From positions 1,150,022 through 1,214,021 of the forward strand of contig CP070674.1 of NCBI GenBank assembly GCA_020351995.1: a stretch of 64,000 nt of DNA, written 5' to 3'. Below the pieces are notes generated by a model, which was not told where the DNA came from, did not search any database, and saw only the letters and a program-made list of their open reading frames with translations. This stretch comes from Candidatus Zixiibacteriota bacterium (GTDB taxonomy: Bacteria; Zixibacteria; MSB-5A5; GN15; FEB-12). A program made the position numbers and the translations under genes. Position 1 is the first letter of the stretch. Each line of letters begins with the position of its first letter. Positions 2,416 through 28,287 of this stretch are shown piece by piece.

Positions 2416-2450
2416 GGCTTTTTCGGTATTTAGATTATATTCATCGGACT

Positions 2451-3680
2451 ATGATTCGAAGGTCGGTGGGATTTGTAAAACAGTTTGAGAAGAACCTCTG
2501 GATTCTGTCGACCGGGTGGTTCGTCAGCGCCCTTGGTTTCGCCATCTCAATTCCCTTTATAGCCATCTACTTTTACGCCACGCTGGGTCTTTCGATGTCC
2601 GAAATCGGGGTCTTTTTCGGGGCCATGGCCCTGGTCCGTTCGGTATTTCAGGCGATCGGCGGAGAAGTCTCCGACCGGATTGAGCGGCATATCCTTTTAA
2701 TTTATTCACAGATCTTTCGGGCGGGAGCCTTTCTTACTCTGGCTATTTCCATTTATAAGGATTGGGGCTTCTGGCCGGTCGCGATCGCGCTCCTGGTAAA
2801 TTCGATCTTCGGGGCCATCTTTCAACCGGTCGCTAATGCCATGGTATCCGATATTCTTCCGGTCGACAAGCGGCTCGACGGTTATGCTATTACTCGTTCG
2901 GCGGGTAACCTCGGCTGGGCAGTGGGGCCGGCTATCGGTGGGTTTCTGGCGGGATACTCGTACGGCCTACTGTTTCTTATTTCATCCGGAATAACTCTTC
3001 TATCAGGTCTGGTCTTCTTAATCTTTCTCAAACCACCCCGGACGGTAATCGTTCAGGATCGTTTCAAGTTTTCGGATCTGTTGGCCATTAAGGACGATCC
3101 GTATCTTGCCCGCCATTCGATATTGATTTTTGCGCTGTACCTTGTCGTGGCCCAGTTGATCGCTCCGTTTTCGGTTTACGCGGTCGAGATGGTCAAGATT
3201 ACCGAACACCAGCTCGGGATACTATATACCCTGAACGGACTCATGGTGGTCCTTTTGCAGATACCGGTCACGCGCCTTCTGGCGGGCTATCGACTGACGA
3301 CCCAGCTTGCCATGGGAGCTTTCGTATATGCGGTTGGGTACGGGATGGTCGGTGTTCTGGCCGGATTCGAGTTTTTCGTGCTGGCGATGATAGTTGTCAC
3401 GATGGGTGAGATATTCATGTCGCCACCGTCACTGACGCTGACTTCACGTCTCGCCCCTGAGGGCCGGATGGGCAGGTATATGGGCATCTTTGGGTTCTTT
3501 GTGGCGGCGGGGTGGTCGTTCGGGCCGCTTTATGGGGGTGTCATTCTTGACCATTTCGGCGGAAACGCGCCCGTTGCCTGGGCGTTGATTTCGTCGCTGG
3601 CCATTCTGTCAGGTGTGGGGTACATGCTATTCCGAAGAATCTTACCGGAGCGCTTCAATATCAAAGAAAACGCTACTTGA
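2451..3680 (+). CDS. MFS transporter, drug-resistance type
   Basis: A 409-aa, very hydrophobic protein with about 12 predicted membrane helices, the usual major facilitator size. After helix 2 it has the loop GGEVSDRIERH, a version of MFS motif A (G-x3-D-R-x-x-R). A second repeat of the fold begins near residue 220 (HSILIFALYLVVAQLIAPFS). The late motif SPPSLTLTSRLAPEGRMGRYMG and the following glycine-rich helix are typical of the multidrug/sugar efflux-like subgroup. The substrate cannot be read from the sequence. No strong Shine-Dalgarno precedes the ATG at 2451. Its 3' end overlaps the convergent gene P1 by 8 bp. Confidence 0.85.
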   Translation: MIRRSVGFVKQFEKNLWILSTGWFVSALGFAISIPFIAIYFYATLGLSMSEIGVFFGAMALVRSVFQAIGGEVSDRIERHILLIYSQIFRAGAFLTLAISIYKDWGFWPVAIALLVNSIFGAIFQPVANAMVSDILPVDKRLDGYAITRSAGNLGWAVGPAIGGFLAGYSYGLLFLISSGITLLSGLVFLIFLKPPRTVIVQDRFKFSDLLAIKDDPYLARHSILIFALYLVVAQLIAPFSVYAVEMVKITEHQLGILYTLNGLMVVLLQIPVTRLLAGYRLTTQLAMGAFVYAVGYGMVGVLAGFEFFVLAMIVVTMGEIFMSPPSLTLTSRLAPEGRMGRYMGIFGFFVAAGWSFGPLYGGVILDHFGGNAPVAWALISSLAILSGVGYMLFRRILPERFNIKENAT

Positions 3681-6246
3681 TAATCACCAGCTTCCCCATC
3701 TGCGTTCCCTCTTCGGATTCAACAACCCAGTAATACAGGCCGGACTCCACCAGTTGGGTGTTACGAGTGATCATGTTCCATTCTTCATGCATCGCTTCCG
3801 GACCACCTCCGGGGTAATGGTGTTCCAGTTTACGTACAAGATCTCCGTCAAGCGAGTAGATGTATATAGTACATACCGGCGGTAGATTCGCGAAATGAAT
3901 CCGGTGCATCCGGTCCGGGGCCAACAGCCCGTAGCGGTTTTCGAACCCCTGAGCCTGGTAGTCAACATCACCTCGGTACGGGTTTGGGTACACATAAACC
4001 TTAAGGTCGTTTGCGGCGACTTCTTCAGTTGAGGCCAGGGGGTAGGCCGCCTGGGTATTGTTAGAAATTGGTGACTCCGAAGATGCCAGTCCGAGGATGG
4101 TACTGCCTCGGTCGAATGCTGTCACGCTTATGTAATAGGGAACGGTAGGCAGCAAGTCGTCTATAACCAACTCGTATTCGAAATACTTAAAATATCCGTC
4201 TTCGGTCAACTCGTCGGGGTCGGCGTCGTCGGGGTTCAAGGTTGATGGATATGGCTGGTTGGGATAGGACTTACGGATCGGTGTGTCGACTCCAAAAGCT
4301 GATTGGTTGTAGCCAACTGTAGCGAAATAGAATATCGAATCGGTATTTGCCGGCGTGAACGGATTATCCTCGTTGAAGTAAAGCGGGTCGAAGTCCTCTA
4401 TGCCATGCGGGTCACCGTACAACTGCTGAAGTTCTTCTCGCGTGTACACACGTTCCTCGACTTCATAGCGCCAGATATTGAAGACGAATTTCATGTAATC
4501 ATCTCTGTCATATGAGGTGTACAGAGACATACTCCCCTGGCGGTCGTCTCGCCCAATGTAGACTCTATATCCTTCAAACCTGATCTCTTGGAAGAACTGA
4601 TTGACCGTTGTCTCAGGTTTGAGCCCGTTAAAACGAAGGGTTAATGAGCCAACCTTTGGTTCGATTCGCAATTCAGGAGCGGGTGGGGGAGATACACCCC
4701 TGAAATCCGGTATACCATCGCCTTTGTACCAGAAGGTGTCGCACATGATGTAGGGTCCACCGGTGTCAGTGAATATGGTATCCGCACAACATACGCGGTA
4801 GCTTCCGCTGTCACCGTCACCATCCGTGTCGAATCCCGGGTTGTCATATATCCAGGATGCCCAGAGCGAATTCTCTGCCAGCGACGAGAAGTCAAGAGAC
4901 TCGTAGTATTGGTCCGGGAACGCGGGATCGAATAACAGCCGATCGTCCGGTTTGACGTGAACGTTCTCTCCCCCCACTACAGCTACAGTTACTTCTTGTA
5001 CATGGCCGGGAGCTATATCGAATGGGCCTATCGACAGCGAAGCACTTATACCGTAACCGTTAGCGAGCGCTATGGCATAAGCCGGGTTTGGCGGCGGCAT
5101 CCAGCCTTCCTGTGTATGATCGACAGCGGTGTACATCTGATCGTAGTCGATTTCGGGGTGACTGAGGATGTAGTAACGGTCCCGATCGGTTCTAGGACTT
5201 CCCAGTATTCCCGAATCGAATTCTACAAATGGATCCTCTTCTGTGTGCGCCCTTCTGGGACCAAATTCATAGTTGACAGGCCAATTCAGGAACATTGACC
5301 ACCAGTTGTAGTTGGTTCGGTCGGCACCGGCAGGTACTTGCAGGAATCGCACGCCCACCACATTACGCACGCATTCCTGGGACCATTCTGGTCCGAGAGC
5401 GTCACCGTCGTTGTCCATCCAGTAGGCGATATTCAACGTATCGACAAAGCCGCATTCTGCGGAACCTGTGTGGGACGCATAGAAACCTGTTAGATCGTCA
5501 CCGAGACTACTAGCTGGGTTCATTAAGTCGAGTACCAACGGCGAGGGATTCAATCCAAAGTAAGCTTTGGTGATCTGTTGATCGCTGATGTTCTCGATCT
5601 CATAGTGAACAAGGACAAAGTCATCAGCGTAATCCCAGCTCCAGGCCATAGACCGCTGGCGAACTTTTATACCGATCGGTTTGTGATTACAAGTCACGTC
5701 GAAAGGGCAGACCCATTTGTCGACGTCAAAAGTGTCTGACCAGACACAGTACAAATCCTGTTCACTAATCGCGTCTTCGTCGTACCATTTACTTTCTGCG
5801 TATACGGTTTGCGGTATAAGTCCATAGTAAGATTCCTGGTCGGGCCAGGTTTCATAAAAGGCATATGCACCTCCGGTCATGGAAACCATCGTGTCACTCC
5901 CGACAATCGCGCCGATTGACAACGTAATTCCTCTCACCCACCAGTTCGGGCGGTCCTTTGGGTACGATAACGGCGGCCACCATTCGCCTGTGAAGGCATC
6001 AATCTGGTTGGTGTAGAGACTCGATCCAAGGGCACCATTACTGCAAACGCTCAGCTGCAGCTTACCGACGGTGTGGGCCGACTGCTCGATAGCAGGGCAG
6101 TCCAGCGTCAGAATATTCTCATCCGTTGGTTTGTCACCCGGATGCCAGAGTATTGGGGGGGGCTGAAGTGTATCGGATTGAGCCAGAGGGCTAAGCAGAA
6201 GGCACGTCAGACCTGCACGCATCAGCGTGCGCAATGCTGTTGTCAT
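3673..6246 (-). CDS. Array paralogue P1: large secreted protein with YPNP-type C-terminal domain
   Basis: 857 aa. The N-terminus (MTTALRTLMRAGLTCLLLSPLAQS) looks like a Sec signal peptide. Body motifs include DNPGFDTDGDGDSG (about residues 468-482, a calcium-type DxDxDG loop), then a Cys pair, a short loop with a further Cys, GDGIPDFRG (about 508), FEGYRVYIGRDDR (about 555, fibronectin-III-like) and a sorting-type domain from YPNPYRGDVDY (about 752) to GKLVIIK. Function is unknown; it is inferred to be an exported or surface protein. P1 is closest to P3: both have the short Cys loop and YPNPYRGDVDYQA. It is the last gene of the array, is separated from P2 by a terminator and so probably has its own promoter in 6247-6304. 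Its 3' end overlaps the MFS gene by 8 bp. Confidence 0.85.
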   Translation of the reverse strand: MTTALRTLMRAGLTCLLLSPLAQSDTLQPPPILWHPGDKPTDENILTLDCPAIEQSAHTVGKLQLSVCSNGALGSSLYTNQIDAFTGEWWPPLSYPKDRPNWWVRGITLSIGAIVGSDTMVSMTGGAYAFYETWPDQESYYGLIPQTVYAESKWYDEDAISEQDLYCVWSDTFDVDKWVCPFDVTCNHKPIGIKVRQRSMAWSWDYADDFVLVHYEIENISDQQITKAYFGLNPSPLVLDLMNPASSLGDDLTGFYASHTGSAECGFVDTLNIAYWMDNDGDALGPEWSQECVRNVVGVRFLQVPAGADRTNYNWWSMFLNWPVNYEFGPRRAHTEEDPFVEFDSGILGSPRTDRDRYYILSHPEIDYDQMYTAVDHTQEGWMPPPNPAYAIALANGYGISASLSIGPFDIAPGHVQEVTVAVVGGENVHVKPDDRLLFDPAFPDQYYESLDFSSLAENSLWASWIYDNPGFDTDGDGDSGSYRVCCADTIFTDTGGPYIMCDTFWYKGDGIPDFRGVSPPPAPELRIEPKVGSLTLRFNGLKPETTVNQFFQEIRFEGYRVYIGRDDRQGSMSLYTSYDRDDYMKFVFNIWRYEVEERVYTREELQQLYGDPHGIEDFDPLYFNEDNPFTPANTDSIFYFATVGYNQSAFGVDTPIRKSYPNQPYPSTLNPDDADPDELTEDGYFKYFEYELVIDDLLPTVPYYISVTAFDRGSTILGLASSESPISNNTQAAYPLASTEEVAANDLKVYVYPNPYRGDVDYQAQGFENRYGLLAPDRMHRIHFANLPPVCTIYIYSLDGDLVRKLEHHYPGGGPEAMHEEWNMITRNTQLVESGLYYWVVESEEGTQMGKLVIIK

Positions 6247-6304
6247 GCTGTTCTACCGTCTTTCCTTTCTCATCCTAAAGACGGAGTCAAGTCGGGCTTT
6301 GTGC

Positions 6305-6348
6305 AAAAAAAACTCCGCCTTTCACATGGAAGTGGAGTGCCCGGAGTT
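6305..6348 (-). terminator. Intrinsic terminator between P2 and P1
   Basis: On the minus strand the stem AACTCCG / CGGAGTT (plus-strand arms 6311-6317 and 6342-6348) is followed directly by a run of T (plus-strand A tract 6305-6312). An inner hairpin CACTTCCATGTGAAAG strengthens it. It lies 60 bp after the P2 stop. Confidence 0.75.
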
Positions 6349-6408
6349 GATAGCTCTATACTTAGACAGTTGGGCTTGTCTACCTAAACCAGTGCTTCAA
6401 TAGCGTTC

Positions 6409-9039
6409 CTACTTGATAATCACCAATTTTCCGATCTGCGTTCCTTCTTCCGATTCGACTACCCAGTAGTACAAGCCGGTTTCGACTAACTGAGTGTTGC
6501 GAGTGATCATGTTCCATTCCTCGTGCATGGCTTCGGGGCCACCCTCGGGGTAGTTGTGTTCGAGCCGACGGATAAGATCTCCGTCAAGCGAATATATGTA
6601 TATTGTGCACACCGGCGGCAGGTTGGCAAAATGAATTCGGTGCATGCGGTCGGGAGCCAGGGTCCCGTCACGGTTCTCATAGCCCAGGCCTTCATAATCG
6701 ACATCACCCCGATAAGGATTGGGGTAGACAAAGACCTTTAGCTGCTTCTCCGCTATCTCATCGGTAGATGCAAGGGGGTACGCTACCTTCATACTGTTGA
6801 GTACAGGTGACTCGAGGGCTTTAATCCCGTACTCAGGGCAGCCGAAGTCAAAAGCGGTAACACTGACATAGTAGGCAACTGTGGGAAGGAGATTGTCGAT
6901 CAGTATCTCGTACTCGAAATACTTCAGGTATCCATCCTCGGTCAACTCATCACGGCGGGCTTCGTAGGGATTTAAGCTGGAAGGATATTCCTGTTCCGGG
7001 TAGCTTTTCCGGATCGGTGTCGCCACCCCAAACTCCGAACAATTGAAATCCTGAGATGCGAAATAGAAGACCGAATCGGGGAAATCAGGATGTGTATAGA
7101 CATGATCCTGATCATAAATGAGAGGATCGAAGTCGCTGATCCCAAGCGGGTCACCGTACAGCATCTGCAGCTCACTTCGGGAAAAGGGAGCGTCTAATAC
7201 AAGGAACGTTTCGCGAGCAGCAAGGTAGACATATTTGTTGTAGTCCTCTCTATCATACGATGCCTGCACGCTAAAACTCGACAATCGGTCATCACGGCTT
7301 ATGTAAACGCGGTATCCTTCGAAGTCGATCAAGCCCGTAAAGTAGTCCGGGGTGGTTTCAGAGGGAAGACCGTTGAAGCGAAGGATAAGCCGACCGACCC
7401 CGGTTTCGATTCTGGTTGTTGGCGGGGGAGGCGGCGAAGCTCCCCTGAAATCGGGAACACCGTCGCCCTGGTACCACATCATGTCACAAAAACGCGAATC
7501 ATAGTCCGGAATGTCAGTGGTGTCGGCCAGGTAATCGATATAATAACCGGCGGTATCGCCGCAGCAGATTCTTCGCTTTCCGGCCCAGCCGTCGCCGTCG
7601 GTGTCCACACCGGGATTATCGTAAATCCACGAAGCCCAGCGGGCATTTGCCGCCACCGAGTCAAAATTCAGTTTATTGTAAAATGTTGTTGGGTAATAAG
7701 GATTGAAGCTCTGTAAGTTCGCAGGATCGAGATGAAAATTTTCGCCTCCAACCCAGGCCAGGGTAATTGGCAGACTTTCTCCCGGGTCTATGTCAAAAGG
7801 GCCGCACGAGAGAAGAGTGCGCATATCCCCGAAACCATCGGCCATGTCCGCGGCGTACTCGGGTGGAGGAAGCCAGCCCCGTCCGCTGTCACTGTGATCG
7901 ACGGCAACATAGAGCAGGTCATAATCAAACTCGTTATGCTTTAAGAGGTAATAGCGGTCCTCATCGATCAACGGCGTACCCAGGCCGTTGCCGAGATCTC
8001 TCCATGGGTCTTCATTGATCGGTTTCTGACGAGGGCCGAAGTCCAGAGTGGGATCAGAATAATTCGTAACCCACCAATTGAATGAATATTCGAGCTGGTC
8101 CGAAGGGGTGCGGATAACCCTGACACCGATTATCGATCGAGGTGATTTTTCGTCCCATGCATCGCCCGCCGGGTCGCCATCGTTGTCAGCCTGGTAGGCT
8201 ATGTTAACGGTATCAATAAAACCACAGCCATATGACGCGGGTGTCGTCCGGTAGAAACCAACGATATCGTCCGTATACCCCGCATACTCGCCCGGGGCTA
8301 CGTGTAGTATGTCACAGTCGAACCAGATTCCCAGATACGCGTCTTTCAGTTGCTCGGAGCCAATATTCTTGATTTGATAGTCGAGGATAATGAAATCGTC
8401 GGCATAGTCAAAACTCCAGGCCATTGATCTCTGTCTGACTCTGAGCTGAAGCGGTCGATGAGGTCTTTGGTCGTGGAAGCAAAGATTAGTGATAAGGGGG
8501 TTAGTTTCAGTATCGGTATACTCACAGATAATGTCCTGTTCGGAATCAGCTTCTTCTGAGTAATATGGGCTGAAGGGGTCAATCGACATGACCTTAAAAC
8601 CGCTCGGGTCGAACCACGGGTTAGGCCAGAATTCATTCGCACAGTAAAAGTCTTCGATGCCCGTGGAGACAAGAGTGTCTCTCCCGACAATAGCCCCGAC
8701 CCAAAGTGCCCCGACAAAGAGGTGTTCAATATTACTATTCTTGGGATATGTACATGAGAAGAGGATGTCCTGACCGGTTATTGCGTCCTCTGCTGTCACT
8801 CCCATGAGGCCGCCAAAAGTTCCGTTGTTAGCAATGACCAGTTGCATGTTATTAAGGCTGTGAAGGATACGCGCTATCTCAGGCCAATCTGCTGCAATAG
8901 TGGAAGAGGGCAACACCCGATTGGCCGTAATTTCAGACTTATAATCGCGAGCTGATAAAAGAGAGGGTGAGAGCAGCAAAGACACGGTTAGTAGTACGGC
9001 ACCCCTACGGCCAAATCCGTGCCAGGACCCCATGTGCAA
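6409..9039 (-). CDS. Array paralogue P2: large secreted protein with YPNP-type C-terminal domain
   Basis: 876 aa from a TTG at 9039 (AAGG five bases upstream); an in-frame ATG at 9033 is the alternative. The signal peptide is GRRGAVLLTVSLLLSPSLLSA. The body has DNPGVDTDGDGWAG (about 473), a Cys pair opening a long loop (CCGDTAGYYIDYLADTTDIP) before the third Cys, GDGVPDFRG, FEGYRVYISRDDR (about 572) and YPNPYRGDVDYEGLGYENR (about 771) ending in GKLVIIK. The long loop and the DYEG variant match P4 rather than the neighbouring P1 or P3. Only 7 bp separate it from P3 upstream, so P5-P4-P3-P2 look co-transcribed, and a terminator follows. Function unknown. Confidence 0.85.
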   Translation of the reverse strand: MHMGSWHGFGRRGAVLLTVSLLLSPSLLSARDYKSEITANRVLPSSTIAADWPEIARILHSLNNMQLVIANNGTFGGLMGVTAEDAITGQDILFSCTYPKNSNIEHLFVGALWVGAIVGRDTLVSTGIEDFYCANEFWPNPWFDPSGFKVMSIDPFSPYYSEEADSEQDIICEYTDTETNPLITNLCFHDQRPHRPLQLRVRQRSMAWSFDYADDFIILDYQIKNIGSEQLKDAYLGIWFDCDILHVAPGEYAGYTDDIVGFYRTTPASYGCGFIDTVNIAYQADNDGDPAGDAWDEKSPRSIIGVRVIRTPSDQLEYSFNWWVTNYSDPTLDFGPRQKPINEDPWRDLGNGLGTPLIDEDRYYLLKHNEFDYDLLYVAVDHSDSGRGWLPPPEYAADMADGFGDMRTLLSCGPFDIDPGESLPITLAWVGGENFHLDPANLQSFNPYYPTTFYNKLNFDSVAANARWASWIYDNPGVDTDGDGWAGKRRICCGDTAGYYIDYLADTTDIPDYDSRFCDMMWYQGDGVPDFRGASPPPPPTTRIETGVGRLILRFNGLPSETTPDYFTGLIDFEGYRVYISRDDRLSSFSVQASYDREDYNKYVYLAARETFLVLDAPFSRSELQMLYGDPLGISDFDPLIYDQDHVYTHPDFPDSVFYFASQDFNCSEFGVATPIRKSYPEQEYPSSLNPYEARRDELTEDGYLKYFEYEILIDNLLPTVAYYVSVTAFDFGCPEYGIKALESPVLNSMKVAYPLASTDEIAEKQLKVFVYPNPYRGDVDYEGLGYENRDGTLAPDRMHRIHFANLPPVCTIYIYSLDGDLIRRLEHNYPEGGPEAMHEEWNMITRNTQLVETGLYYWVVESEEGTQIGKLVIIK

Positions 9040-9046
9040 AATTACC

Positions 9047-11650
9047 TTATTTTATAATTACCAATTTCCCGATCTGCGTTCCTTCTTCAGATTCGACAAC
9101 CCAGTAGTAAAGACCGGATTCCACGAGTTGCGTGTTGCGAGTGATCATGTTCCATTCCTCGTGCATCGCCTCCGGTCCTCCTTCGGGGTAATAGTGTTCA
9201 AGCTGCCGGACCAGGTCTCCGTCCAGTGAATAGATGTATATAGTACAGACCGGCGGCAGATTCGCAAAGTGAATTCGATGCATCCGGTCCGGGGCCAGAC
9301 TCCCGTCGCGGTTTTCAAACCCCAGGGCCTGGTAGTCAACATCGCCCCGATAAGGGTTGGGATACACATACACCTTAAGGTCGTTTTGCTCGACATCCTC
9401 CGTTGAACTCAGTGGGTAGGCAACCTGTAACCCGTTGATTACCGATGTTTCCAGGGCGGCCAAGCCGATCTCCGGCGACCCGAAATCGAAAGCGGTCACA
9501 TTCACATAATAAGGGACGGTGGGGAGCAGGTCTTCGATGAATATCTCATATTCAAAATACTTCAGATATCCATCCTCAGTCAACTCTTCGGGAAGAGCTT
9601 CCTCGGGGACGAGCGACGAAGGATAAGTCACGTCGGGGTATATTTTCCTTATGGGCGTGGTCAGGCCGAAGTCTGACTGGTTGAAATCCTGTGGGGCGAA
9701 GTAGAAGACTGAATCGGGAAAGTCGGGATGGATATATGGATTAGTGCGGTCAAATAGCATAGGGTCAAAATCCTCAAGGCCAAGAGGAACGCCGTAGAGT
9801 TCCTGGAGCTGGGCGCGTGTGAACGGGGCGTCGAGAAGTCGAAAAGTTTCGCGATAAAAGTCCCAGACATACTTGTTATAATCCTCGCGATCGTAGGAAG
9901 CTGCCAACGTAAAGCTGGTGATACGATCATCTCGTCCGATATAAACACGATAGCCTTCGAAGTCCGGTCTTCCCGAGAACCGGTCACGGGCGGTTTCTGA
10001 GGCCAGACCATTGAACCTGACGCGAAGGGTACCAACTGATGGTTCGACCCAAATCTGGGGGGCCGGGGGAGGAGAGGCGCCACAGAAGTCAGGCACGCCA
10101 TCACCTTCGTACCATGATGTGTCACAGGCTTCGTAGATGATTCCAGTGTCCGTTTCGATGGTATCCAGACAGCATATGCGGTATTTGCCGCTGTCGCCGT
10201 CTCCATCGGTATCGACCCCCGGATTGTCGTAAATCCACGACGCCCAGCGCGAGTTAGTAGCCAGCGAGGAAAAGTCGAGCTTGCTGTAATACGAACTCGG
10301 GCTATAAGGGTTGAACGATTCAAAATCATCGGGATTAACATGAAAATTCTCACCACCCACCCAGGCGAATGAGACGGGAAGTTTCTCTCCGGGATCAATG
10401 TTGAAGGGCCCAAATGACAGGCAGTATCGAATGTCAAAGCCGTTGGCGTACTCCGCCGCGTACTCGGGCGGAGGTAACCAACCCCGTCCGCTGTCGGAGT
10501 GGTCCACGGCGGTAAAGAGCAGGTCGTAGTCGAACTCATCGTGGCGCAGCATATAATACTTGTTCTCGTCCCCCACCGGTGTACCAAGGCGGTCCCCGAA
10601 ATCCCTGAAGGGATCATCGTCAGTCCCGCGCTGACGAGGGCCAAAATCGCGGGAGGGATCGCTGTAGTTCATTATCCACCAGTTAAAGGAGTACCTGAGG
10701 GAATCAAGGGGGGTACGGACGACCCGGACACCGACAACCGACCTTGGCGATTTTTCCGTCCACAGGCCGTCGATAGGATCCCCGTCGTTATCGGAATGAT
10801 AGGCGATGTTGATGGTATCGAGATGTCCGCAGCCATCCTCAGCGGGATGAGTGCGGTAAAAGCCTACAATGTCATCGGTCCAGTAGACCTGGTCCTGCAG
10901 GGTGGTATGAAATACGCACCCATCAAGCCAGATTCCCATGTAAATATCTTCAAGACGTTGGTCACCGATGTTCTGAACCAGGTAATCAAAGAGGATGAAG
11001 TCGTCGGCGTAATCATAACTCCAGGCCATTGATCTCTGGGTTGCTTTTATGCCAAGGGGAATGTGCGCGCGGGGGGCACAGCTTCCGGGATCGGTCAAGC
11101 CTACATCGGTTGTGGTGTCTGTGTATTCGCAAATGATATCCTGTTCGGAATAAGCGTCTTCGGAAAAATACCGGCTCGACGGATCGATAGATTCATATTT
11201 CATGTCGCCGAAGGGCGATATATCGGGCCAGAATTCGTATGAGCAATACATGTCTTCGGCACCGGTGGAAACGAGCGTGTCCCGACCGACAACAGCACCG
11301 ACCCAGAGAGCGGTCACGTAAAGATATATCATGTCACTGTTACGAGGGTAGATGCAGGCCTGGACCCATTCGCCGGTAATTGGGTCATAAATGTCATCCC
11401 ATTCGGAACCGAAGGTTCCGTTATTACGGATGACTAGAAGCATTTTACCCTGGGTGTGCGCCACAGCGCCTACTTCAGGTCGTTCCGACGCGGTTGAAAT
11501 CGGCACTGTCCGTGCCAGGCCTTGCCTGTCCAGTTTGGGATTACGGGCGAAGAGTCCTTCACCGACACCCAGCAGAGTGAACAGGACCAGGCATGTTACT
11601 ATTTTGCGGGTTACAGACAAGAGAAATACACGCAACTTAGTTCTATTCAA
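9047..11650 (-). CDS. Array paralogue P3: large secreted protein with YPNP-type C-terminal domain
   Basis: 867 aa if the TTG at 11650 is used; no in-frame ATG precedes the hydrophobic signal segment (IVTCLVLFTLLGVGEGLFA). This start overlaps the last 8 bases of P4, which suggests translational coupling. Motifs: DNPGVDTDGDGDSG (about 472), Cys pair with a short loop (CCLDTIETDTGIIYEACDT), GDGVPDFCG with an extra Cys where most copies have Arg, FEGYRVYIGRDDR (about 562), YPNPYRGDVDYQALGFENR (about 761) and GKLVIIK at the end. It is closest to P1. Function unknown; export is inferred from the signal and C-terminal domain. Confidence 0.85.
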   Translation of the reverse strand: MNRTKLRVFLLSVTRKIVTCLVLFTLLGVGEGLFARNPKLDRQGLARTVPISTASERPEVGAVAHTQGKMLLVIRNNGTFGSEWDDIYDPITGEWVQACIYPRNSDMIYLYVTALWVGAVVGRDTLVSTGAEDMYCSYEFWPDISPFGDMKYESIDPSSRYFSEDAYSEQDIICEYTDTTTDVGLTDPGSCAPRAHIPLGIKATQRSMAWSYDYADDFILFDYLVQNIGDQRLEDIYMGIWLDGCVFHTTLQDQVYWTDDIVGFYRTHPAEDGCGHLDTINIAYHSDNDGDPIDGLWTEKSPRSVVGVRVVRTPLDSLRYSFNWWIMNYSDPSRDFGPRQRGTDDDPFRDFGDRLGTPVGDENKYYMLRHDEFDYDLLFTAVDHSDSGRGWLPPPEYAAEYANGFDIRYCLSFGPFNIDPGEKLPVSFAWVGGENFHVNPDDFESFNPYSPSSYYSKLDFSSLATNSRWASWIYDNPGVDTDGDGDSGKYRICCLDTIETDTGIIYEACDTSWYEGDGVPDFCGASPPPAPQIWVEPSVGTLRVRFNGLASETARDRFSGRPDFEGYRVYIGRDDRITSFTLAASYDREDYNKYVWDFYRETFRLLDAPFTRAQLQELYGVPLGLEDFDPMLFDRTNPYIHPDFPDSVFYFAPQDFNQSDFGLTTPIRKIYPDVTYPSSLVPEEALPEELTEDGYLKYFEYEIFIEDLLPTVPYYVNVTAFDFGSPEIGLAALETSVINGLQVAYPLSSTEDVEQNDLKVYVYPNPYRGDVDYQALGFENRDGSLAPDRMHRIHFANLPPVCTIYIYSLDGDLVRQLEHYYPEGGPEAMHEEWNMITRNTQLVESGLYYWVVESEEGTQIGKLVIIK

Positions 11651-14261: not shown

Positions 14262-14270
14262 CTCTTGGTG

Positions 14271-16904: not shown

Positions 16905-17270
16905 GATTTCCACACTCTGACTTTGATGGTTTTTTTCTTGTGACGTTCATCCTCTCGAATTGGTTTAATTAAAACTCGCTCAGCCTAACGATAGCCCGCC
17001 GAGTTTTAAGCCGTAAATCTACACAATTCCCCCATTCAAAGCAAGCAATTTAAGCCAAAAAAGTTGCCCTGTCGGCCTGTCTCAGATGACGATAGACCAA
17101 AATTAAGTGTCTGTACTTCTGTGGGTTATGCATGCCGAGATGGTTTTCCTCCAAAGCCGGTCGAGTTCGCGCTCGCGGCCGTGAACGGGAACCAATTTTC
17201 CTCCGGCTGACGCAAACGTTGGGGCCGCTGATGCGGGATGCTTTCGCAGAAGCTGCTAACTAACGCCATA
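16905..17270. other. Intergenic region upstream of P5 with a 10-bp inverted repeat
   Basis: 366 bases without a gene between the P6 stop and the P5 start. It holds a perfect inverted repeat TTAAAACTCG (16969-16978) / CGAGTTTTAA (17000-17009), AT-rich outside and able to act as a terminator in either direction. The P5 promoter must lie in this region, but no clear -35/-10 pair was found. No coding signal was seen. Confidence 0.5.
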
Positions 17271-19865: not shown

Positions 19866-20064
19866 CGTAACCTCTCTGAATATGCTTCTGATACACATAG
19901 AACGTTCGGATACCGCAATGCGTCCAGATATATTGTCAACATAGAAAAGCAGCTGTTTACGCGCAATGGAATAGTGAGATTACCCTGGACAGCAGGGAAA
20001 GCAGACCCAAAGAAGGCCTTGATTTGACAAAAACCGGCACCTGGGATATATAAGATAAAATCCA

Positions 20065-22680
20065 TCACATAATTATGACCAATTTGCCGATCTGGGTTTC
20101 ACCGTTGTCGGCTTCAACCGTCCAGTAGTACAGGCCGGTCGTGACCATCTGGGTGTTTCTCGTTATCAAGTTCCAGGTTTCATGCGACGCCGCCGGGTCG
20201 TCAACCGGAACGTCATGGTTGATCTCCCGGATTAAATCGCCGTCGAGCGAGTATATCTTAATGGTACACTTCGCCGGAAGGTTGGCAAAGTTGATGGCCC
20301 GCACACGATAATCAGGACGGTCGGGAGCGGTCCGTCCCTCAAAACCCATGTCGCGGTAGTCTGCGTCAAGGCGGTAGGGATTGGGATAAACGTAAACCTT
20401 CAAACCTTGCTCGGCGACCACTGAGCTCGGTTCGCTGGCGTAACCACACTTGCCCCCATTAGCCAGAGAGCTTTCAAGCGGTAGGACGCGGTTCACCGGG
20501 GAACCGAAATCGAAGGCGGTAACATTGACCCAGTACGCAACGGTGGGCAAGAGGCTGTCGATCATCAATTCATAATCAAAGTATTTCAGATAACCGTCAT
20601 CGGTCAATTCATCTGGATGAGCCGAATCCGGGTTCAGGCTTGAGGGGTAAGGCTGATCGGGATAGGTCTTTCTGATATTTGTGTTGAGTCCAAAGCTGGA
20701 CGCGTTGTAATCCTGTTGCGAGAAGTAGAAAATAGAGTCTTCCGGAAACAGCGGGTGAAAGTACGGGTTACCCACGGAATACGTCATTGGATGGAACAGT
20801 GTATCATCGCACGACAGTCCGTAGAGGCAGCGCAGTGAATCGGGGTGGAAGGGGATATCAAGAATCGTAAATTGGTAACCGGTCCAGACGTGTTTGTTAA
20901 AATCTTCGCGGTCATAGGACGCGATCAGGCTGTAACTTGATTCTCTATCGTCGAGGCCGATGTAGACGCGGTAGCCTTCAAAATCGACCAACCCCGTGAA
21001 CGGGTCTCTGGCAGTTTCCGACCTTTGTCCATTTATCCGGACCCGGAAGCTCCCAACGGACGGCTCCAGCCAGAATTCGGGAGGAGGAGGCGGCCCCGCG
21101 GACGTGAAATCCGGCACGCCATCACCCGTGTACCATGAAACCGTGCACTCATCAGGGTCGTAGCCGGGAATGGTCGATATGTCGTCGATATTGTCAAGAC
21201 TATATCCGGTCTCGCCGCCGCAGCAGACTCTCACTTTCCCGGCATAGCCGTCGCCGTCGGTATCCACTCCCGGATTATCAAAAACCATTTGAGCCCAGGA
21301 AGCGTTTCGGTGAAGGTCGGAAAAGTCGAGGTTCTGACGATAAGTGTCAGGATGCCAGGGGAGGTTCTTGATGTTCTCCGGATCAACATGCAGATTCCTG
21401 CCCGCGACGTAGGCAATCGTCAGCGGCATTTGCTCGCCGGGACCCAGGTAGAAAGGTCCGCAGGATAACAGGTAACGGACGTCCGCGCCATCGGCACAAT
21501 CAGGGGCAAACTGCCAGGGAGGATGCGCCCATAGCGTATCATCGTCGGGGATAGTTGCGGTGTAATATTGGTCATAATCGATTTCGCGGTTTCGCATCTG
21601 ATAGTACCTGTTTGCATCGCCGACCGGAATTCCTGTACCATTTGTCCCAAATTCTCGCCATTCCTCCTCCCATATGCCGACGAACGGTCTTTCTCGGGGT
21701 CCAAGGTCGAAGGTTGTAGTGTTGTCATCATAACTGATTGCCCACCAATTGAAGGATACCCCCGCTTTGTCACTCGGAGCGCGGAGTAGACATGTGGCGG
21801 TAACATGCGGTAAGGAATACTGTCCAAACACGGAGCCATCGGGGTTCCCGTCGTTATCGGCAACCCAGGCAATGTTTACTGTGTCTTCAAACTCGCAACC
21901 TCCTTCTCGATCAGGGATTGTGCCGATGAAACCGCTGATGTCATCTACCGACCCCAACCAATCGCTCGTAAAGCGAACATCGGGGTCAGCATGTATACCC
22001 AGGTATATGTCCTTTAGCAGCTCGGAACTGATATTGCGAATGCTGTAATCGAAAATAACAAAGTCCTCGGCGTTCGCGTATGACCAGGCGTAGGAACTCT
22101 GCGAGACCTCGATGCCAATCGATCGGTGGTCTTCTGTTTCCAAAAAGTTGTTGTTGGCCTGCGGTACTGTATCAGTGAATAAGACAAGGTAGTCTTCTTC
22201 CGAAACGGCTTCTGGGCTGTAGTATGGCTCACCAGGAATCTTGGTGCGCTTAACAATGCGACTGAAATCTACTAATTCAGGCCAGAACTCGCTATAGAGA
22301 ATCCCATCTGCGTATGCGGTAGTCACCAGCGTGTCGCCACCTCTACCTGTGCCGATCCAGAGACCGCCCGCCCAAAGGTAGATCGTGTGCGAACCCTGAG
22401 GATATTCACATGACTCGAGTATATCGCCGGTGAAATAGTCGGTACCCCAGTTGTACCACCAGGTACTGCCAATTGTACCCTCATTCCTAAAGCAAAGGCG
22501 GAGATCTCCTATTCGATGTTCAGCGCTGGCACCGTAGTAATTCGTGGCCACCGTTTCAGTCAAAGCGGGAAACTTCTGGCCCGTCGAATCTACGGGATTT
22601 CTACCATAGGCAAAAGAAATTGTAAGGAATAAAGATAAGAGTACAATTCCCACGTATGGGGAAGTTACGCGTGATGTCAC
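20065..22680 (-). CDS. Array paralogue P7: large secreted protein with YPNP-type C-terminal domain
   Basis: 871 aa from a GTG at 22680. This start is chosen because TTGGGAG lies 5 bases upstream and aligns base for base with the start of P8 (TTGGGAGGCTCC-ATGACATC against TTGGGAGATCCC-GTGACATC). The frame stays open further upstream to 22830, but that part has no counterpart in other copies. Motifs: SEEDYLVLFTDT, SYANAEDFVIFDY, DNDGNP, DNPGVDTDGDGYAG (about 467), Cys pair, GDGVPDFTS, FEGYRVYIGLDDRE (about 565), YPNPYRLDADYRDMGFEGR (about 762), ending GKLVIIM. It is nearly identical to P8 over long stretches, a recent duplicate. Function unknown. Confidence 0.85.
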   Translation of the reverse strand: MTSRVTSPYVGIVLLSLFLTISFAYGRNPVDSTGQKFPALTETVATNYYGASAEHRIGDLRLCFRNEGTIGSTWWYNWGTDYFTGDILESCEYPQGSHTIYLWAGGLWIGTGRGGDTLVTTAYADGILYSEFWPELVDFSRIVKRTKIPGEPYYSPEAVSEEDYLVLFTDTVPQANNNFLETEDHRSIGIEVSQSSYAWSYANAEDFVIFDYSIRNISSELLKDIYLGIHADPDVRFTSDWLGSVDDISGFIGTIPDREGGCEFEDTVNIAWVADNDGNPDGSVFGQYSLPHVTATCLLRAPSDKAGVSFNWWAISYDDNTTTFDLGPRERPFVGIWEEEWREFGTNGTGIPVGDANRYYQMRNREIDYDQYYTATIPDDDTLWAHPPWQFAPDCADGADVRYLLSCGPFYLGPGEQMPLTIAYVAGRNLHVDPENIKNLPWHPDTYRQNLDFSDLHRNASWAQMVFDNPGVDTDGDGYAGKVRVCCGGETGYSLDNIDDISTIPGYDPDECTVSWYTGDGVPDFTSAGPPPPPEFWLEPSVGSFRVRINGQRSETARDPFTGLVDFEGYRVYIGLDDRESSYSLIASYDREDFNKHVWTGYQFTILDIPFHPDSLRCLYGLSCDDTLFHPMTYSVGNPYFHPLFPEDSIFYFSQQDYNASSFGLNTNIRKTYPDQPYPSSLNPDSAHPDELTDDGYLKYFDYELMIDSLLPTVAYWVNVTAFDFGSPVNRVLPLESSLANGGKCGYASEPSSVVAEQGLKVYVYPNPYRLDADYRDMGFEGRTAPDRPDYRVRAINFANLPAKCTIKIYSLDGDLIREINHDVPVDDPAASHETWNLITRNTQMVTTGLYYWTVEADNGETQIGKLVIIM
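21231..21420 (-). repeat. Near-identical DNA block shared by P7 and P8 (P7 copy)
   Basis: This stretch and 24030-24220 in P8 differ at only a handful of positions over about 190 bases, including third codon positions. Other pairs in the array are clearly more diverged at the same place. It is one of several such blocks; the 3' part of both genes (around 20390-20570 and 23205-23370) is another. Confidence 0.8.
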
Positions 22681-22810
22681 GGGATCTCCCAATAATGTCG
22701 CCGTTGCTGCTAGAGTGTTGACGATCAAAGGCGTGATTCTGTTTAACTCTACCTTTGACTGACTTAAAACGCCGCGTATGACATCATATGTCTTGTCAGG
22801 ACCGTGGCTT

Positions 22811-22850
22811 ACGCCGTAAGTGACAGACAAATGTCGCTGGATTACGGCGT
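22811..22850. other. Long hairpin in the P8-P7 intergenic region
   Basis: Perfect 9-bp arms ACGCCGTAA (22811-22819) and TTACGGCGT (22842-22850), with an inner imperfect 6-bp pairing GTGACA / TGTCGC. It lies just after the P8 stop on the minus strand but has no T tail. It could be an mRNA 3'-end stabiliser, a weak terminator or a binding site. Confidence 0.5.
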
Positions 22851-22860
22851 GGGTAAGCGC

Positions 22861-25494
22861 TTACATGATTATGACGAATTTACCGATCTGGGTCTCACCG
22901 TTGTCGGCCTCGACCGTCCAGTAGTACAGGCCGGTCGTGACCATCTGCGTGTTTCTGGTGATCATATTCCAAGTTTCATGCGATGCTGCCGGGTCGTCTA
23001 CGGGTAGATCATGCTTGATCTCCCGAATTAAATCGCCATCCAGGGAATATATCCTGATAACGCATTTCGCCGGCAGGTTGGCGAAGTTGATGGCCCGAAC
23101 ACGATAATCGGGCCGGTCAGGAGCGGTCCGTCCCTCAAAACCCATGTCGCGGTAGTCGGCCTCGATGCGGTAGGGATTAGGATAAACGTACACCTTCAAA
23201 CCTTGCTCGGCGACCACTGAGCTCGGTTCGCTGGCGTAACCGCACTTACCCCCATTAGCCAGAGAGCTTTCAAGCGGTAGTACCCGGTTCACCGGGGAAC
23301 CGAAATCGAAGGCGGTGACATTGACCCAGTACGCAACGGTGGGCAAGAGGCTGTCGATCATCAATTCATACTCAAAGTATTTCAGATAACCGTTATCGGT
23401 CAATTCATCTGGATGAGCTGAGTCCGGATTCAGGCTCGAGGGGTAAGGCTGATCGGGATAGGTCTTTCTGATATTCGTGTTCAGTCCAAAGCTGGACGCG
23501 TTGTAATCCTGTCGCGAGAAATAAAAAATAGAATCATCAGGAAACAAAGGATGAAAGTATGGGTTGGTCACCGTATAGGCCAGTGGATCGAATTGCATAT
23601 CATCGCACGACAGCCCGTAAAAGCAGCGCAGTGAATCAGGGTGGAAGGGAATGTCAAGAATCGTGAACTGGTAACCGGTCCAGACGTGTTTGTTAAAATC
23701 TTCGCGGTCATAGGACGCGATCAGGCTGTAGCTGGATTCTCTCTCATCGAGACCGATATAGACGCGGTAGCCTTCAAAATCGACTAATCCGGTGAACGGG
23801 TCTTTGGTTGTTTCCGACCTTTGTCCATTTATCCTGACCCGGAAACTCCCGATAGAAGGTTCCAGCCAGAATTCTGGAGGAGGAGGCGGCCCCGCGGAGG
23901 CAAAATCCGGCACGCCGTCACCCGCATACCACGATACTATACACTCATCGGGATCATAACCGGGAATGGTCGACATGTCGTTGATATTGTCGAGGGTATA
24001 TCCCGTCTCGCCGCTGCAGCAGACCCTCAGTTTCCCGGCATAGCCGTCGCCGTCGGTATCCACTCCCGGATTGTCGAAAACCATTTGAGCCCAGGAGGCG
24101 TTTCGGTGAAGGTCGGAAAAGTCGAGGTTCTGACGATAAGTGTCAGGATGCCAGGGGAGGTTCTTGATGTTCTCCGGATCAACATGCAGATTCCTGCCCG
24201 CGACATAGGCAAAAGTCAGCGGCATTTGTTCGCCGGGATCTAAATAGAAAGGACCACAAGATAGCAGGTAACGGACGTCGGCGCCGTCGGCACAATCAGC
24301 AGCAAACTGCCAGGGCGGATGTGCCCACAGCGTATCATCATCCGGGATGGTTGCCGTGTAATATTGGTCATAATCGATTTCGCGGTTTCGCATCTGGTAG
24401 TACTTGTTTGCATCGCCCGACGGTCTTCCTGTGCCATTCGTCCCGAATTCTCGCCATTCCTCTTCCCATATGCCGACGAACGGTCTCTCCCGGGGTCCGA
24501 AATCGAAGGTAAATGAATAGCTGTCAGTCCACGTGCCAGTCCACGCGACTGCCCACCAATTAAAGGATATCGCCGCTTTGTCACTCGGTGCGCGGAGCAA
24601 ACATGTGGCGGTAACATGGGGTAAGGAATACTGTCCAAACACGGAGCCATCGGGGTCGCCGTCGTTATCGGCAACCCAGGCGATGTTGACTGTATCCTCA
24701 AACTCGCAACCCCCTTCTCGATAAGTGATCGTGCCGATGAAGCCGCCAATGTCGTCTAGCTGCCCCCCGTCCCACCCACCCGCGAAGTAGACATCGGGGT
24801 CAGCGTGTATACCCAGGTATATGTCCTTCAGTGGCTCGGAACTGATGTTGCGGATGCTGTAGTCGAAAATAACAAAATCCTCGGCGTTCGCGTACGACCA
24901 GGCGTATGAACTTTGCGAGACCTCGATACCAATCGGCCGGTGATCTTCCTGCTCGTATCGGTTATTGTTGCTCAGGGCCAGTGTATCATAGTGTAAGACA
25001 AGGTAATCTTCTTCGGAGACTGCGTCCGGACTGTAGTATGGCTCACCCGGAATCTTGGCGCGCTTAACAATCCGACTGAAGTCAATTAATTCAGGCCAGA
25101 ACTCGCTCAGCCAAATTTCGTCTGCCCATGCGGTGCTCACCAGGGTGTCACCATGCCTCGGCGCGCCAACCCAGAGACCGCCTGCCCAAAGGTACATCGT
25201 GTGCGAACCCTGAGGGTATTCGCACGACTCGAGTATATCGCCGGTGAAATAGTCGGTACCCCAGTTGTACCACCAGGTACTGCCAATTGTACCGTCATTC
25301 CTGACGCAAAGGCGGAGATCTCCTATTCGATGTTCGGCGCAGGCAAGGTAATAATTGGCAGTCGCTGTCTCGGCCAGCGTTAGATACTTTTGGCTTAGCG
25401 AATCCGCGGGCTCTCTACTGTAAGCGACTGGAAAACTAAGGCATAGAAGCAAGAATACGATTCCCGCGCACGGGAACGTTACACGCGATGTCAT
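22861..25494 (-). CDS. Array paralogue P8: large secreted protein with YPNP-type C-terminal domain
   Basis: 877 aa from the ATG at 25494, with the strong ribosome site TTGGGAGG just upstream; a TTG at 25506 would overlap that site. Signal peptide MTSRVTFPCAGIVFLLLCLSFPVAYS. Motifs: SEEDYLVLHYDT, SYANAEDFVIFDY, DNDGDP, DNPGVDTDGDGYAG (about 471), CCSGETGYTLDNINDMSTIP loop, GDGVPDFAS, FEGYRVYIGLDERE (about 570), YPNPYRIEADYRDMGFEGR (about 767), ending GKFVIIM. Compared with P7 it differs mostly in scattered residues and in a short insert near WAVAWTGTWTDSYS. Function unknown. Confidence 0.85.
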   Translation of the reverse strand: MTSRVTFPCAGIVFLLLCLSFPVAYSREPADSLSQKYLTLAETATANYYLACAEHRIGDLRLCVRNDGTIGSTWWYNWGTDYFTGDILESCEYPQGSHTMYLWAGGLWVGAPRHGDTLVSTAWADEIWLSEFWPELIDFSRIVKRAKIPGEPYYSPDAVSEEDYLVLHYDTLALSNNNRYEQEDHRPIGIEVSQSSYAWSYANAEDFVIFDYSIRNISSEPLKDIYLGIHADPDVYFAGGWDGGQLDDIGGFIGTITYREGGCEFEDTVNIAWVADNDGDPDGSVFGQYSLPHVTATCLLRAPSDKAAISFNWWAVAWTGTWTDSYSFTFDFGPRERPFVGIWEEEWREFGTNGTGRPSGDANKYYQMRNREIDYDQYYTATIPDDDTLWAHPPWQFAADCADGADVRYLLSCGPFYLDPGEQMPLTFAYVAGRNLHVDPENIKNLPWHPDTYRQNLDFSDLHRNASWAQMVFDNPGVDTDGDGYAGKLRVCCSGETGYTLDNINDMSTIPGYDPDECIVSWYAGDGVPDFASAGPPPPPEFWLEPSIGSFRVRINGQRSETTKDPFTGLVDFEGYRVYIGLDERESSYSLIASYDREDFNKHVWTGYQFTILDIPFHPDSLRCFYGLSCDDMQFDPLAYTVTNPYFHPLFPDDSIFYFSRQDYNASSFGLNTNIRKTYPDQPYPSSLNPDSAHPDELTDNGYLKYFEYELMIDSLLPTVAYWVNVTAFDFGSPVNRVLPLESSLANGGKCGYASEPSSVVAEQGLKVYVYPNPYRIEADYRDMGFEGRTAPDRPDYRVRAINFANLPAKCVIRIYSLDGDLIREIKHDLPVDDPAASHETWNMITRNTQMVTTGLYYWTVEADNGETQIGKFVIIM

Positions 25495-25589
25495 GGAGCC
25501 TCCCAAAAGTGTTGCTGTTGTTAAAACGCAGACGGTCGAGTATACGATTCCGTTTAATGAAAAACTGCAGTATTACACGGGTTATCTGC

Positions 25590-25613
25590 GATGCCGGCTG
25601 CGCTGCCAGCATC
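25590..25613. other. Small hairpin between P9 and P8
   Basis: GATGC-C-GGC / GCC-A-GCATC with a 6-base loop, about 70 bp after the P9 stop on the minus strand. There is no T tail. It may mark the 3' end of the P9 transcript, but this is weak. Confidence 0.25.
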
Positions 25614-25683
25614 TATCTGTGATGCGAAATGAAGCACGCAATCGACCGGGGGTATTGCTGGCAAGTGTATGAAGAGGCAGCGC

Positions 25684-28287
25684 TTACATGATTACAACCA
25701 ATTTGCCGATCTGGGTCTCGCCTCCGGGGGTCTCCACAGTCCAGTAATACAGGCCCGAAGTTATCATCTGGGTATTACGCGTGATCATGTTCCAGGTTTC
25801 GTGCGAGGCGGTCGGATCATCCACCGGGACGTCATGGTCGAGTTCGCGGATCAGATCACCGTCTAACGAGTAAATCCTAATGGTACATTTAGGGGGGAGG
25901 TTGGCGAAATTAATGGCTCGCACGCGGTCATTGGGCCGGTCCGAGTCGGTACGACCCTCGAAGCCGGCATCACGGTAATTGGCATCACCGCGATAGGGAT
26001 TCGGGTATACATAGACTTTCAGATCATGGGTGAGAACGTCACCTGCGGTTCGGTCAGGGTATGCGCATTTCCCGCCCAGGGTTACGGCACTCTCCAACGA
26101 CTGCAACTCCGCCTTAGGTGAGCCGAAGTCAAAGGCTGTTACGTTGACCCAATAGGATATCGTTGGTAACAGGTTATCCAGAGTTATTTCGTACTCGAAA
26201 TACTTGAAGTATCCGTCTTCGGTAAGCTCGTCGGGATTGGCAGAATCCGGATTCAGACTTGATGGATAGGTTTGATTCGGGTAGGTCTTGACCAGTGATA
26301 CCCCGGTTCCCTCTCCGGAGACGTTGAAATCCTGTGGCACGAAATAGAACACCGAGTCAGGAAAGAGCGGATGCGTGTACGGGTTGTCACGGGAGTAGAG
26401 CATGGGGTCAAATAGCTGGTCCTCGCAGGAGGCTCCGTAGAGACACCTGAGCGAGTCAATAGAATAAGGAATGTCCAAAAGTCGATATTCGTCGCCGGTC
26501 CACACATATTTGTTGTAATCTTCCCGGTCGTAGGATGCCACCAGGCTGTAGCTGGATTCTCTCTCATCGAGGCCCACATAGACCCGGTAGCCTTCAAAAT
26601 CACAAATACGGGAGAATACGTCTCGGGTCGTTTCCGAGCGAAAGCCGTTGATGCGCACGTGAATACTGCCCACCGACGGTTCGAGCCAGAACTCGGGCCC
26701 GGGTGGAGGAGAGGCGCCGCGGAAATCGGGGACGCCATCACCTTCGTACCAGATGAACTCACAGTCGGAGGCGTTAAAATCCTCGATTTCTATAGTATCG
26801 GCGATGTTTTCAAGACTGTAGGCTAATGAGTCGTCGCAGCACAAGCGCACTTTCCCTTCATATCCGTCGCCATCGGTGTCAATTCCCGGGTTATCATAAA
26901 TTCGCCCGGCCCAGGCCGCGTTCAGGGCCATATCGTCAAAGTTTATGTTATCATAGAAACTGGCAGGTTGCCCCGGCAGGTAGTTGATGTTAGCCGGGTT
27001 TTGGTGGAAATCCTGTCCGGCAACGTAAGCAAACGAGAGCGGCAGTCGCTCTCCCGGATCGATGTCGAACGGTCCAAACGAGAGCAGGTATCGAGTGTCA
27101 AAGCCATCAGCGAAATCTCCGGCCAGCTCTGCGGAGGGCAGTAGCCAGATTGGGTCGTTGGCACTAATAGAGGACGTATAGATCTGGTCATAGTCGAATT
27201 CCCGATTTCGCATCTGGTAATAGGAGTTAGCGTCTCCCATCGGGGTACCCAGACCGCCGGTTCCGAAATCCCTGAACTCTTCTTCCCATCGTCCGGTCAA
27301 GGGCCGTTCCCGGGGACCAAAGTCTAAGACGGACGAGGAGTTACTTATCCACCAGTTGAAGGAAACGTCGAGCTCGTCCGATGGAGTGCGCACAATCCGC
27401 GTACCGGTCACATGGGGAACCGACAACTCGGTGTAAATTCCTCCCTCCGGATCACCGTCGTTATCCGCTATCCAGGCGATGTTGACTGTGTCCCAGTACT
27501 GGCAGCCGCCATAATAGCGGGGAAAGGCTTCTACGAATCCGCATATATCGTCCCTGTAGCCGCCGCTTGAACTGGACTGACCAAAATATACGTCAGCGTC
27601 AACATAGATGCCCATGTAAACATCTTCAAGTCGGGTTCGTCCGATGTTTCGCACCGTATAGTCGAACAGCACAAAATCCTCAGCGTACGAATAGGACCAC
27701 GCATATGAACGCTGGGTCACTTCTATGTTCAGCGGGACGTGCGGCCGCCCCGACCAGTCATTGTCTACGTTGGCCGTCAATGTGTCATAATACACCATAA
27801 TGTAGTCTTCTTCGGACACGGCTCCCTCCAGAAGAGAGGGGTCGCTGCCGCTTATGGACTTCTTCCTGATTTCTCCTATACCCTCGATATCAGGACTGAA
27901 CTCCCGGCCCCACGACCACCCTGTGGCGGCCATAGATACCAGTGTATCACGGCCGACAATGGCACCAATCCAGAACGCCCCAGCGTACAGATACCTTGTG
28001 TTGGAGCCTTTGGGATACTCGCATGATGGAATCATCTCATCGGTGAAGAAATCCGCGCCGGAGGTCGCAAAGCCCGTGCCGAATGACCCATTGTTGCAGA
28101 TGCACAGAACCATCCGGCCGATTCGATGTCCCACGGCACCGTAGGCCGGAGCGTCGCGGAGCTGTATGGCTGGAGTGAATGATTTGTCCGATAAATCTAC
28201 CGGGCCCCTGGCACCGACCGCGGAGGGAATAATAGTAACGCAAAGAAATAATATGGCGTAGTAGTATAGTCGAATTTTCCCTAACAT
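25684..28287 (-). CDS. Array paralogue P9: large secreted protein with YPNP-type C-terminal domain
   Basis: 867 aa from the ATG at 28287. AAAGG abuts the ATG and GAAGG lies 9 bases upstream. Signal peptide MLGKIRLYYYAILFLCVTIIPSAVGA. Motifs: SEEDYIMVYYDT, VTQRSYAWSYSYAEDF, DNDGDP, DNPGIDTDGDGYEG (about 462), CCDDSLAYSLENIADTIEI loop, GDGVPDFRG, FEGYRVYVGLDERE (about 561), YPNPYRGDANYRDAGFEGR (about 758), ending GKLVVIM. It is the first gene of the array in the direction of transcription, with a 5' region of about 190 bp below the M16-operon terminator. Function unknown. Confidence 0.85.
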   Translation of the reverse strand: MLGKIRLYYYAILFLCVTIIPSAVGARGPVDLSDKSFTPAIQLRDAPAYGAVGHRIGRMVLCICNNGSFGTGFATSGADFFTDEMIPSCEYPKGSNTRYLYAGAFWIGAIVGRDTLVSMAATGWSWGREFSPDIEGIGEIRKKSISGSDPSLLEGAVSEEDYIMVYYDTLTANVDNDWSGRPHVPLNIEVTQRSYAWSYSYAEDFVLFDYTVRNIGRTRLEDVYMGIYVDADVYFGQSSSSGGYRDDICGFVEAFPRYYGGCQYWDTVNIAWIADNDGDPEGGIYTELSVPHVTGTRIVRTPSDELDVSFNWWISNSSSVLDFGPRERPLTGRWEEEFRDFGTGGLGTPMGDANSYYQMRNREFDYDQIYTSSISANDPIWLLPSAELAGDFADGFDTRYLLSFGPFDIDPGERLPLSFAYVAGQDFHQNPANINYLPGQPASFYDNINFDDMALNAAWAGRIYDNPGIDTDGDGYEGKVRLCCDDSLAYSLENIADTIEIEDFNASDCEFIWYEGDGVPDFRGASPPPGPEFWLEPSVGSIHVRINGFRSETTRDVFSRICDFEGYRVYVGLDERESSYSLVASYDREDYNKYVWTGDEYRLLDIPYSIDSLRCLYGASCEDQLFDPMLYSRDNPYTHPLFPDSVFYFVPQDFNVSGEGTGVSLVKTYPNQTYPSSLNPDSANPDELTEDGYFKYFEYEITLDNLLPTISYWVNVTAFDFGSPKAELQSLESAVTLGGKCAYPDRTAGDVLTHDLKVYVYPNPYRGDANYRDAGFEGRTDSDRPNDRVRAINFANLPPKCTIRIYSLDGDLIRELDHDVPVDDPTASHETWNMITRNTQMITSGLYYWTVETPGGETQIGKLVVIM

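Follow-up and report, generated by a model that had tools for sequence, protein, structure and literature searches.

In Bacteroidota, two kinds of outer-membrane system come closest to the genes described here. Among proteins delivered by the type IX secretion system (T9SS), cognate pairs of cargo and shuttle, and the PorP-like anchoring of proteins bearing a C-terminal domain (CTD), have been established experimentally (PMC12618676, PMC9143113), and the cargo is known to include adhesins (PMC12618676). In SusC/SusD-type uptake systems, a SusC-like TonB-dependent transporter (TBDT) is encoded beside a surface-type partner. Our literature search on T9SS, or on the protein family treated below, in Zixibacteria returned nothing relevant. 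The window, that is, the whole 64,000-nucleotide stretch of DNA that was analysed, corresponds to C1:1150022-1214021 of a 3.61-Mb genome assembled as one contig. Among named genomes, its closest relatives are Candidatus Zixiibacteriota MAGs. Positions given without a contig refer to this window.

The array, its proteins and its neighbours

Positions 3673-28287 of the minus strand are filled by nine paralogous ORFs of 857-921 aa, all on the same strand, separated by -8 to 357 bp, with no interrupted frame and no other gene between them; nine intact paralogues with nothing else in between had also been reported in the preliminary description. Clade A comprises copies 1 (3673-6246, 857 aa), which is the most divergent member, 2 (6409-9039, 876 aa), 3 (9047-11650, 867 aa) and 4 (11643-14261, 872 aa), while copy 5 (14271-16913, 880 aa) belongs to the middle clade M, with orthologues mid-array in congeners. 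Clade B comprises copies 6 (17271-19898, 875 aa), 7 (20065-22830, 921-aa ORF), 8 (22861-25506, 881-aa ORF), of which copy 7 is a recent duplicate, and 9 (25684-28287, 867 aa). Since the alignment gives copy 7 an N-terminal extension of ~50 aa relative to the other copies, its true start is probably internal, which would leave a protein of ~871 aa. Any two of the nine are 40-87% identical, and identity per alignment column averages 61%. Over 150 columns show no variation, among them those of the YPNPYR motif and of a DNPG-DTD-DG block. A hydrophobic N-terminal segment, judged by eye to be a Sec signal, was found in nine of nine copies, and the signal peptide and the YPNPY tail attributed earlier to each copy are both borne out. 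A horizontal island was rejected because the GC content of the array (52.2%) equals that of its surroundings (52.2-52.4%) and the same locus is found in congeners. Promoter- and terminator-like sites in 3400-23000 were no more frequent than expected by chance, and no RNA family besides the tRNA was found across the window.

Searches of Pfam, NCBIfam and PDB sequences gave no match over the body of the nine copies, and the only matches to named families were sub-threshold ones to T9SS tails; the body thus remains unassigned, as the preliminary description had stated. An AlphaFold2 model of copy 9, made with 134 homologues (pLDDT 90, pTM 0.82), consists of a signal helix (residues 2-18), a beta-rich N-domain of ~430 residues, a beta-rich middle and a beta-rich C-terminal domain. 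When the N-domain was modelled alone (pLDDT 92, pTM 0.90), its best Foldseek matches were to the super-beta-sandwich of GH116, GH94 and GH15 enzymes and to an aldose-1-epimerase-like protein (E 5e-8 to 4e-5), with TM-scores of only 0.33-0.41, and the likeness may be taken as a topology hint at most. In contrast to those enzymes, the model has no (alpha/alpha)6 catalytic barrel and the array protein has no sequence match to them; TM-scores to the GH94, GH116 and GH15 enzymes were 0.27-0.37, where more than 0.5 was taken to indicate membership. A carbohydrate enzyme was therefore rejected, the matches being to the non-catalytic sandwich only. Searches of the nine copies against Pfam and NCBIfam gave no match to SLH, S-layer, repeat or cohesin models. 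Essentially all of the 134 aligned homologues share a cysteine in the tail (residue 801 of copy 9), but no partner cysteine is conserved to the same degree.

The C-terminal domain scored 12.8-15.8 bits against Pfam Por_Secre_tail (PF18962; cut-off 27) in the eight of nine copies that matched, and it was also below the cut-offs for CHU_C and TIGR04183. Because of these scores, we regard it as a divergent tail of the T9SS type, as far as sequence can tell, and not as a member at curated thresholds. When compared by hhalign with eight accepted CTDs of the same genome, with which it shares a similar YPNPY/YPNPF motif, the tail aligned over 64 columns with E 2.5e-5 and a probability of 75%. The genome also carries SprA (442 bits, 1987-aa frame), a PorU-type C25 protein (274 bits) and PorV-family genes.

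Identity among the nine copies rises from 49% in the N-domain to 59% in the middle and 68% in the CTD, a pattern that reads as a constant tail and a variable head, with the N-domain as the faster-evolving part. Across the array, dS is too large for per-site selection tests except in two recent pairs, for which dN/dS was 0.14 (copies 7 and 8) and 0.155 (the pair at C1:466-471 kb); nonsynonymous changes in them are most frequent in the direction of the N-terminus. The proposal that the copies are retained under selection thus agrees with purifying selection where it could be measured.

Directly upstream of the array, in a conserved position on the minus strand, lies the gene for an M16 peptidase B subunit (28534-30675), which lacks HxxEH, and beyond it that for the A subunit (30687-32267, minus strand), with an HMFEH zinc motif at residue 104. 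The HxxEH motif was absent from 22 of 22 M16B proteins checked and present in 15 of 17 M16A proteins, and the two are best regarded as an active and an inactive subunit of one pair. At the 3' end of the array, an MFS transporter gene (2451-3680, plus strand), conserved across families, is convergent with it. A divergent tenth copy (54530-57202, minus strand, 890 aa) belongs to the same subfamily as the tandem pair formed by two further copies elsewhere in the genome (C1:465985-471327). In a congener (G026, C1:880-894 kb; locus L127), an array of this divergent subfamily is split into several frames, through either decay or sequencing indels. Elsewhere in the window, 57249-60281 (minus strand) encodes a 1010-aa protein with a response-regulator receiver domain and a pyruvate phosphate dikinase ATP-binding domain. 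Furthermore, a 1067-aa protein encoded at C1:838-842 kb of the present genome (379-3582 of locus L124, minus strand) combines the N-domain of the family with a region resembling fn3, a C-terminal half that differs and a tail of the T9SS type; the N-domain by itself is thus found in this protein at C1:840 kb and is a reusable module.

Distribution of the family and its operon of origin

The family was found in all 132 genomes of the phylum that were searched (85 genera), and about 40 of 156 sampled genomes of other phyla, roughly a quarter, have weaker, mostly partial matches. Within the genus, the array recurs in close relatives at the same locus, with 9, 5, 5 and 4 copies, as would be expected of the real system envisaged in the preliminary description; it is flanked by the M16 peptidase pair on one side (M16B alone in G025) and by the convergent MFS gene on the opposite side. 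In a tree of the genus, the copies fall into three positional clades (copies 1-4, copy 5 and copies 6-9, located at the 3' end, in the middle and at the 5' end, respectively), each of which has orthologues at the matching position in the arrays of congeners. For this reason, the array is best explained as about three old paralogues in a fixed order, to which duplications within single lineages were added, copies 7 and 8 being the newest.

Remote members of the family, from early-branching members of the phylum and from other phyla, are clustered with a TBDT, a PorV-family barrel and then a lipoprotein; the ancestral transporter is SusC-like, with an N-terminal CarbopepD_reg domain. This operon was read in about 55 genomes. 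Outside the order to which the present genome belongs, the arrangement TBDT, family gene, PorV, lipoprotein was found in 16 genomes of at least 8 families, and at five loci of other phyla the TBDT, the family gene and PorV lie in one cluster. Ten more genomes outside the order have the TBDT and the family gene up to the contig end, or have PorV or the lipoprotein elsewhere, and in two of these, two tandem family copies directly follow the TBDT. Within the order, the arrangement is LplA-TBDT-PorV-lipoprotein, with no family gene, in 20 of 20 genomes with a readable cluster, including the present one (C1:2361667-2369381), where the TBDT is encoded at C1:2362780-2366118, PorV at 2366142-2367161 and the lipoprotein at 2367165-2369381. 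In G063 and G020, the ORF calls have a different frame in place of PorV, and G039 had an unreadable operon. The family gene is also missing from the operon in three genomes outside the order (G096, G098 and G108). The lipoprotein profile was found in 127 of the 132 phylum genomes and in 78 of the 78 best ones.

The TBDTs are orthologous whether or not their operon contains the family gene, and the array copies group as a single clade (SH-aLRT 100) within the operon copies (99). Membership in the family and its origin in the operon are well supported, and the exit from the operon is shown here, as is the nesting. In one genus (G015), an array-type family gene lies immediately upstream of LplA; because it is nested within the array clade, this copy apparently represents a return to the side of the operon. 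The number of N-domain copies per genome was 5-15 (median 7, n=17) when the operon lacks the family gene and 1-7 (median 2, n=14) when the gene is inside it, a difference (Mann-Whitney p about 1e-5; 0.007 on family medians) to be read with the facts that the profile was built mainly from the order and is biased to it, that the MAGs are fragmented and that the genomes are phylogenetically dependent. Two genomes have a single copy, and in both it sits in the operon.

Several features of these operons were noted in addition. In the present genome (locus L173, C1:2360001-2374000; 2780-6118, plus strand) and its relatives, the TBDT consensus contains a long insert made up of repeats of the DxNGNGxxD type, which resemble the calcium-binding type 3 repeats of thrombospondin. 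The lipoate/biotin-ligase-like LplA just upstream of the TBDT (1667-2464 of the same locus, plus strand) is present in almost every genome of the order and also in several genomes from outside the order. Paralogous operons, in which a TBDT, a distant family member (903 and 1084 aa) and a PorV-family gene follow one another, are found at 840-9011 of locus L125 (minus strand; C1:1388-1397 kb of the present genome) and at 3303-10619 of locus L171 (minus strand), and a 559-aa HExxH protein follows in the former. A zinc peptidase as the standard fourth gene of the operon was rejected, since HExxH occurs in this one paralogous operon and the true orthologues encode the lipoprotein.

A possible role in ligand capture and the alternatives

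Our preferred explanation, to which we give about an even chance, is that the family is the T9SS-delivered, surface-exposed part of a SusCD-like outer-membrane system and has been multiplied as capture variants around one conserved transporter. Each protein would be exported by Sec and would cross the outer membrane by way of the SprA translocon, to which the conserved C-terminal domain would direct it; a PorV-type barrel, the probable shuttle or anchor, would recognise the tail, and the protein would be held at the surface, where the variable N-domain would capture a ligand and hand it over to the TBDT. In the order, the gene would have moved out of the operon once and would have been amplified into tandem arrays that lie beside the MFS gene and the M16 peptidase pair, and frequently beside a subtilase too, and the array variants would probably serve the single retained transporter-PorV-lipoprotein complex. 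From these data we infer the surface location, the capture function, the physical docking, the interchangeability of the variants and the class of ligand, which might be peptides, judging from the peptidase neighbours, or glycans, judging from the weak fold resemblance. Three observations speak for the sharing of a single transporter: the tail is conserved, almost every genome has kept the operon, and there is one case of re-association. Capture or transport, rather than a structural coat, is suggested by the ancestral partners, namely the TBDT, the PorV-family barrel and the lipoprotein. Among the roles put forward in the preliminary description, that of paralogous receptors with different ligands is supported, but nothing points to a surface layer, for which no S-layer or SLH match was found, or to calcium-dependent fibres.

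However, several observations do not fit the capture model easily. The array locus contains neither a TonB-type transporter nor PorV, and the genes conserved beside it encode peptidases and an MFS protein, so the array copies may have acquired a new role. Furthermore, G096, G098 and G108 lack the gene in the operon although they lie outside the order, the fold likeness of the N-domain is weak, and re-association of array and operon was found in one genus only. Alternatively, the array copies may have left the transport system for a protein-scavenging locus, in which a secreted subtilase and cell-envelope M16 peptidases degrade protein, the family binds the substrate or the products at the surface, and the MFS transporter imports the products. 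In 44 multi-copy runs, 26 of the 34 readable upstream neighbours are either M16B (11) or a subtilase-type gene (S8 with PKD, often with dockerin) or related ORF (15), an MFS gene is found at 23 of the 34 readable downstream neighbours, and the M16-array-MFS block is kept between families while the flanks change. Nevertheless, the MFS gene is convergent, not co-directional, its best likeness, at sub-threshold scores, is to drug or H+ antiporters, and this neighbourhood is absent around most single copies. Since glgP is another conserved neighbour of the array within the family of organisms, part of the gene order may be inherited and not functional. We consider scavenging unlikely.

It is also conceivable that the copies are paralogous adhesins or surface-coat proteins without a role in transport, in keeping with the adhesins among Bacteroidota cargo (PMC12618676), with the differences in copy number among congeners and with the faster evolution of the N-domain. 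This reading, which we judge quite improbable, is opposed by the position of the ancestral gene inside a transporter operon in many families and in other phyla, where the single-copy genomes keep it, and by the lack of matches to the repeat, SLH, cohesin and S-layer models searched. The tail gave weak matches to PorZ and PorU models and structural matches to PorU and PorZ, which, together with the PorV-family partner gene, might suggest a PorZ-like accessory of the cargo-attachment machinery that supports other cargo instead of capturing a ligand. However, the similarity in sequence does not extend beyond the C-terminal region common to all such cargo, the TBDT partner would be left unexplained, and there would be no reason for nine variants, making such an accessory very improbable.

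If the capture model is correct, outer-membrane uptake would gain a mode in which the type IX system brings the lid or receptor to the surface, where other systems use a lipoprotein, and in which the diversity of receptors varies independently of the number of transporters. This would link T9SS shuttle biology with TonB-dependent transport. In its broadest form, which we put forward tentatively and think somewhat more likely to be wrong than right, a previously undescribed four-component outer-membrane machine (TBDT, PorV-family barrel, lipoprotein and T9SS-delivered capture protein) would be present throughout the phylum, and one lineage would have unlinked and multiplied the capture gene into exchangeable receptors sharing one transporter. 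A family carried by every genome searched in an uncultured phylum thereby gains a testable function, and with a specific, phylum-wide set of genetic partners, secreted proteins that had been unassigned can be framed in a testable model as transporter receptors delivered by T9SS.

Comparison with cargo-shuttle pairs and SusC/SusD systems

Like the cargo of the SprB-SprF and PG1035-PorP pairs (PMC12618676, PMC9143113), the family has a Sec signal and a C-terminal domain, and in its operon the gene for an outer-membrane barrel is likewise located directly downstream of the cargo gene. However, the barrel is of the PorV/PorQ and not the PorP/SprF type, the CTD is of a divergent type below the Pfam and NCBIfam cut-offs, and the operon additionally contains a TBDT and a lipoprotein. 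As in the SusC/SusD-type systems of Bacteroidota, a SusC-like TBDT is encoded beside a surface-type partner in the ancestral operons, which is not the case at the array locus of the window. In contrast to SusD, this partner has a beta-rich fold in the model, a signal peptide without a lipobox in the aligned N-termini and a T9SS-type tail, and gave no match to the SusD model of Pfam. Furthermore, the operon differs from SusC/SusD in containing a PorV-family barrel and a separate lipoprotein and, within the order, in having many copies of the partner gene away from the operon.
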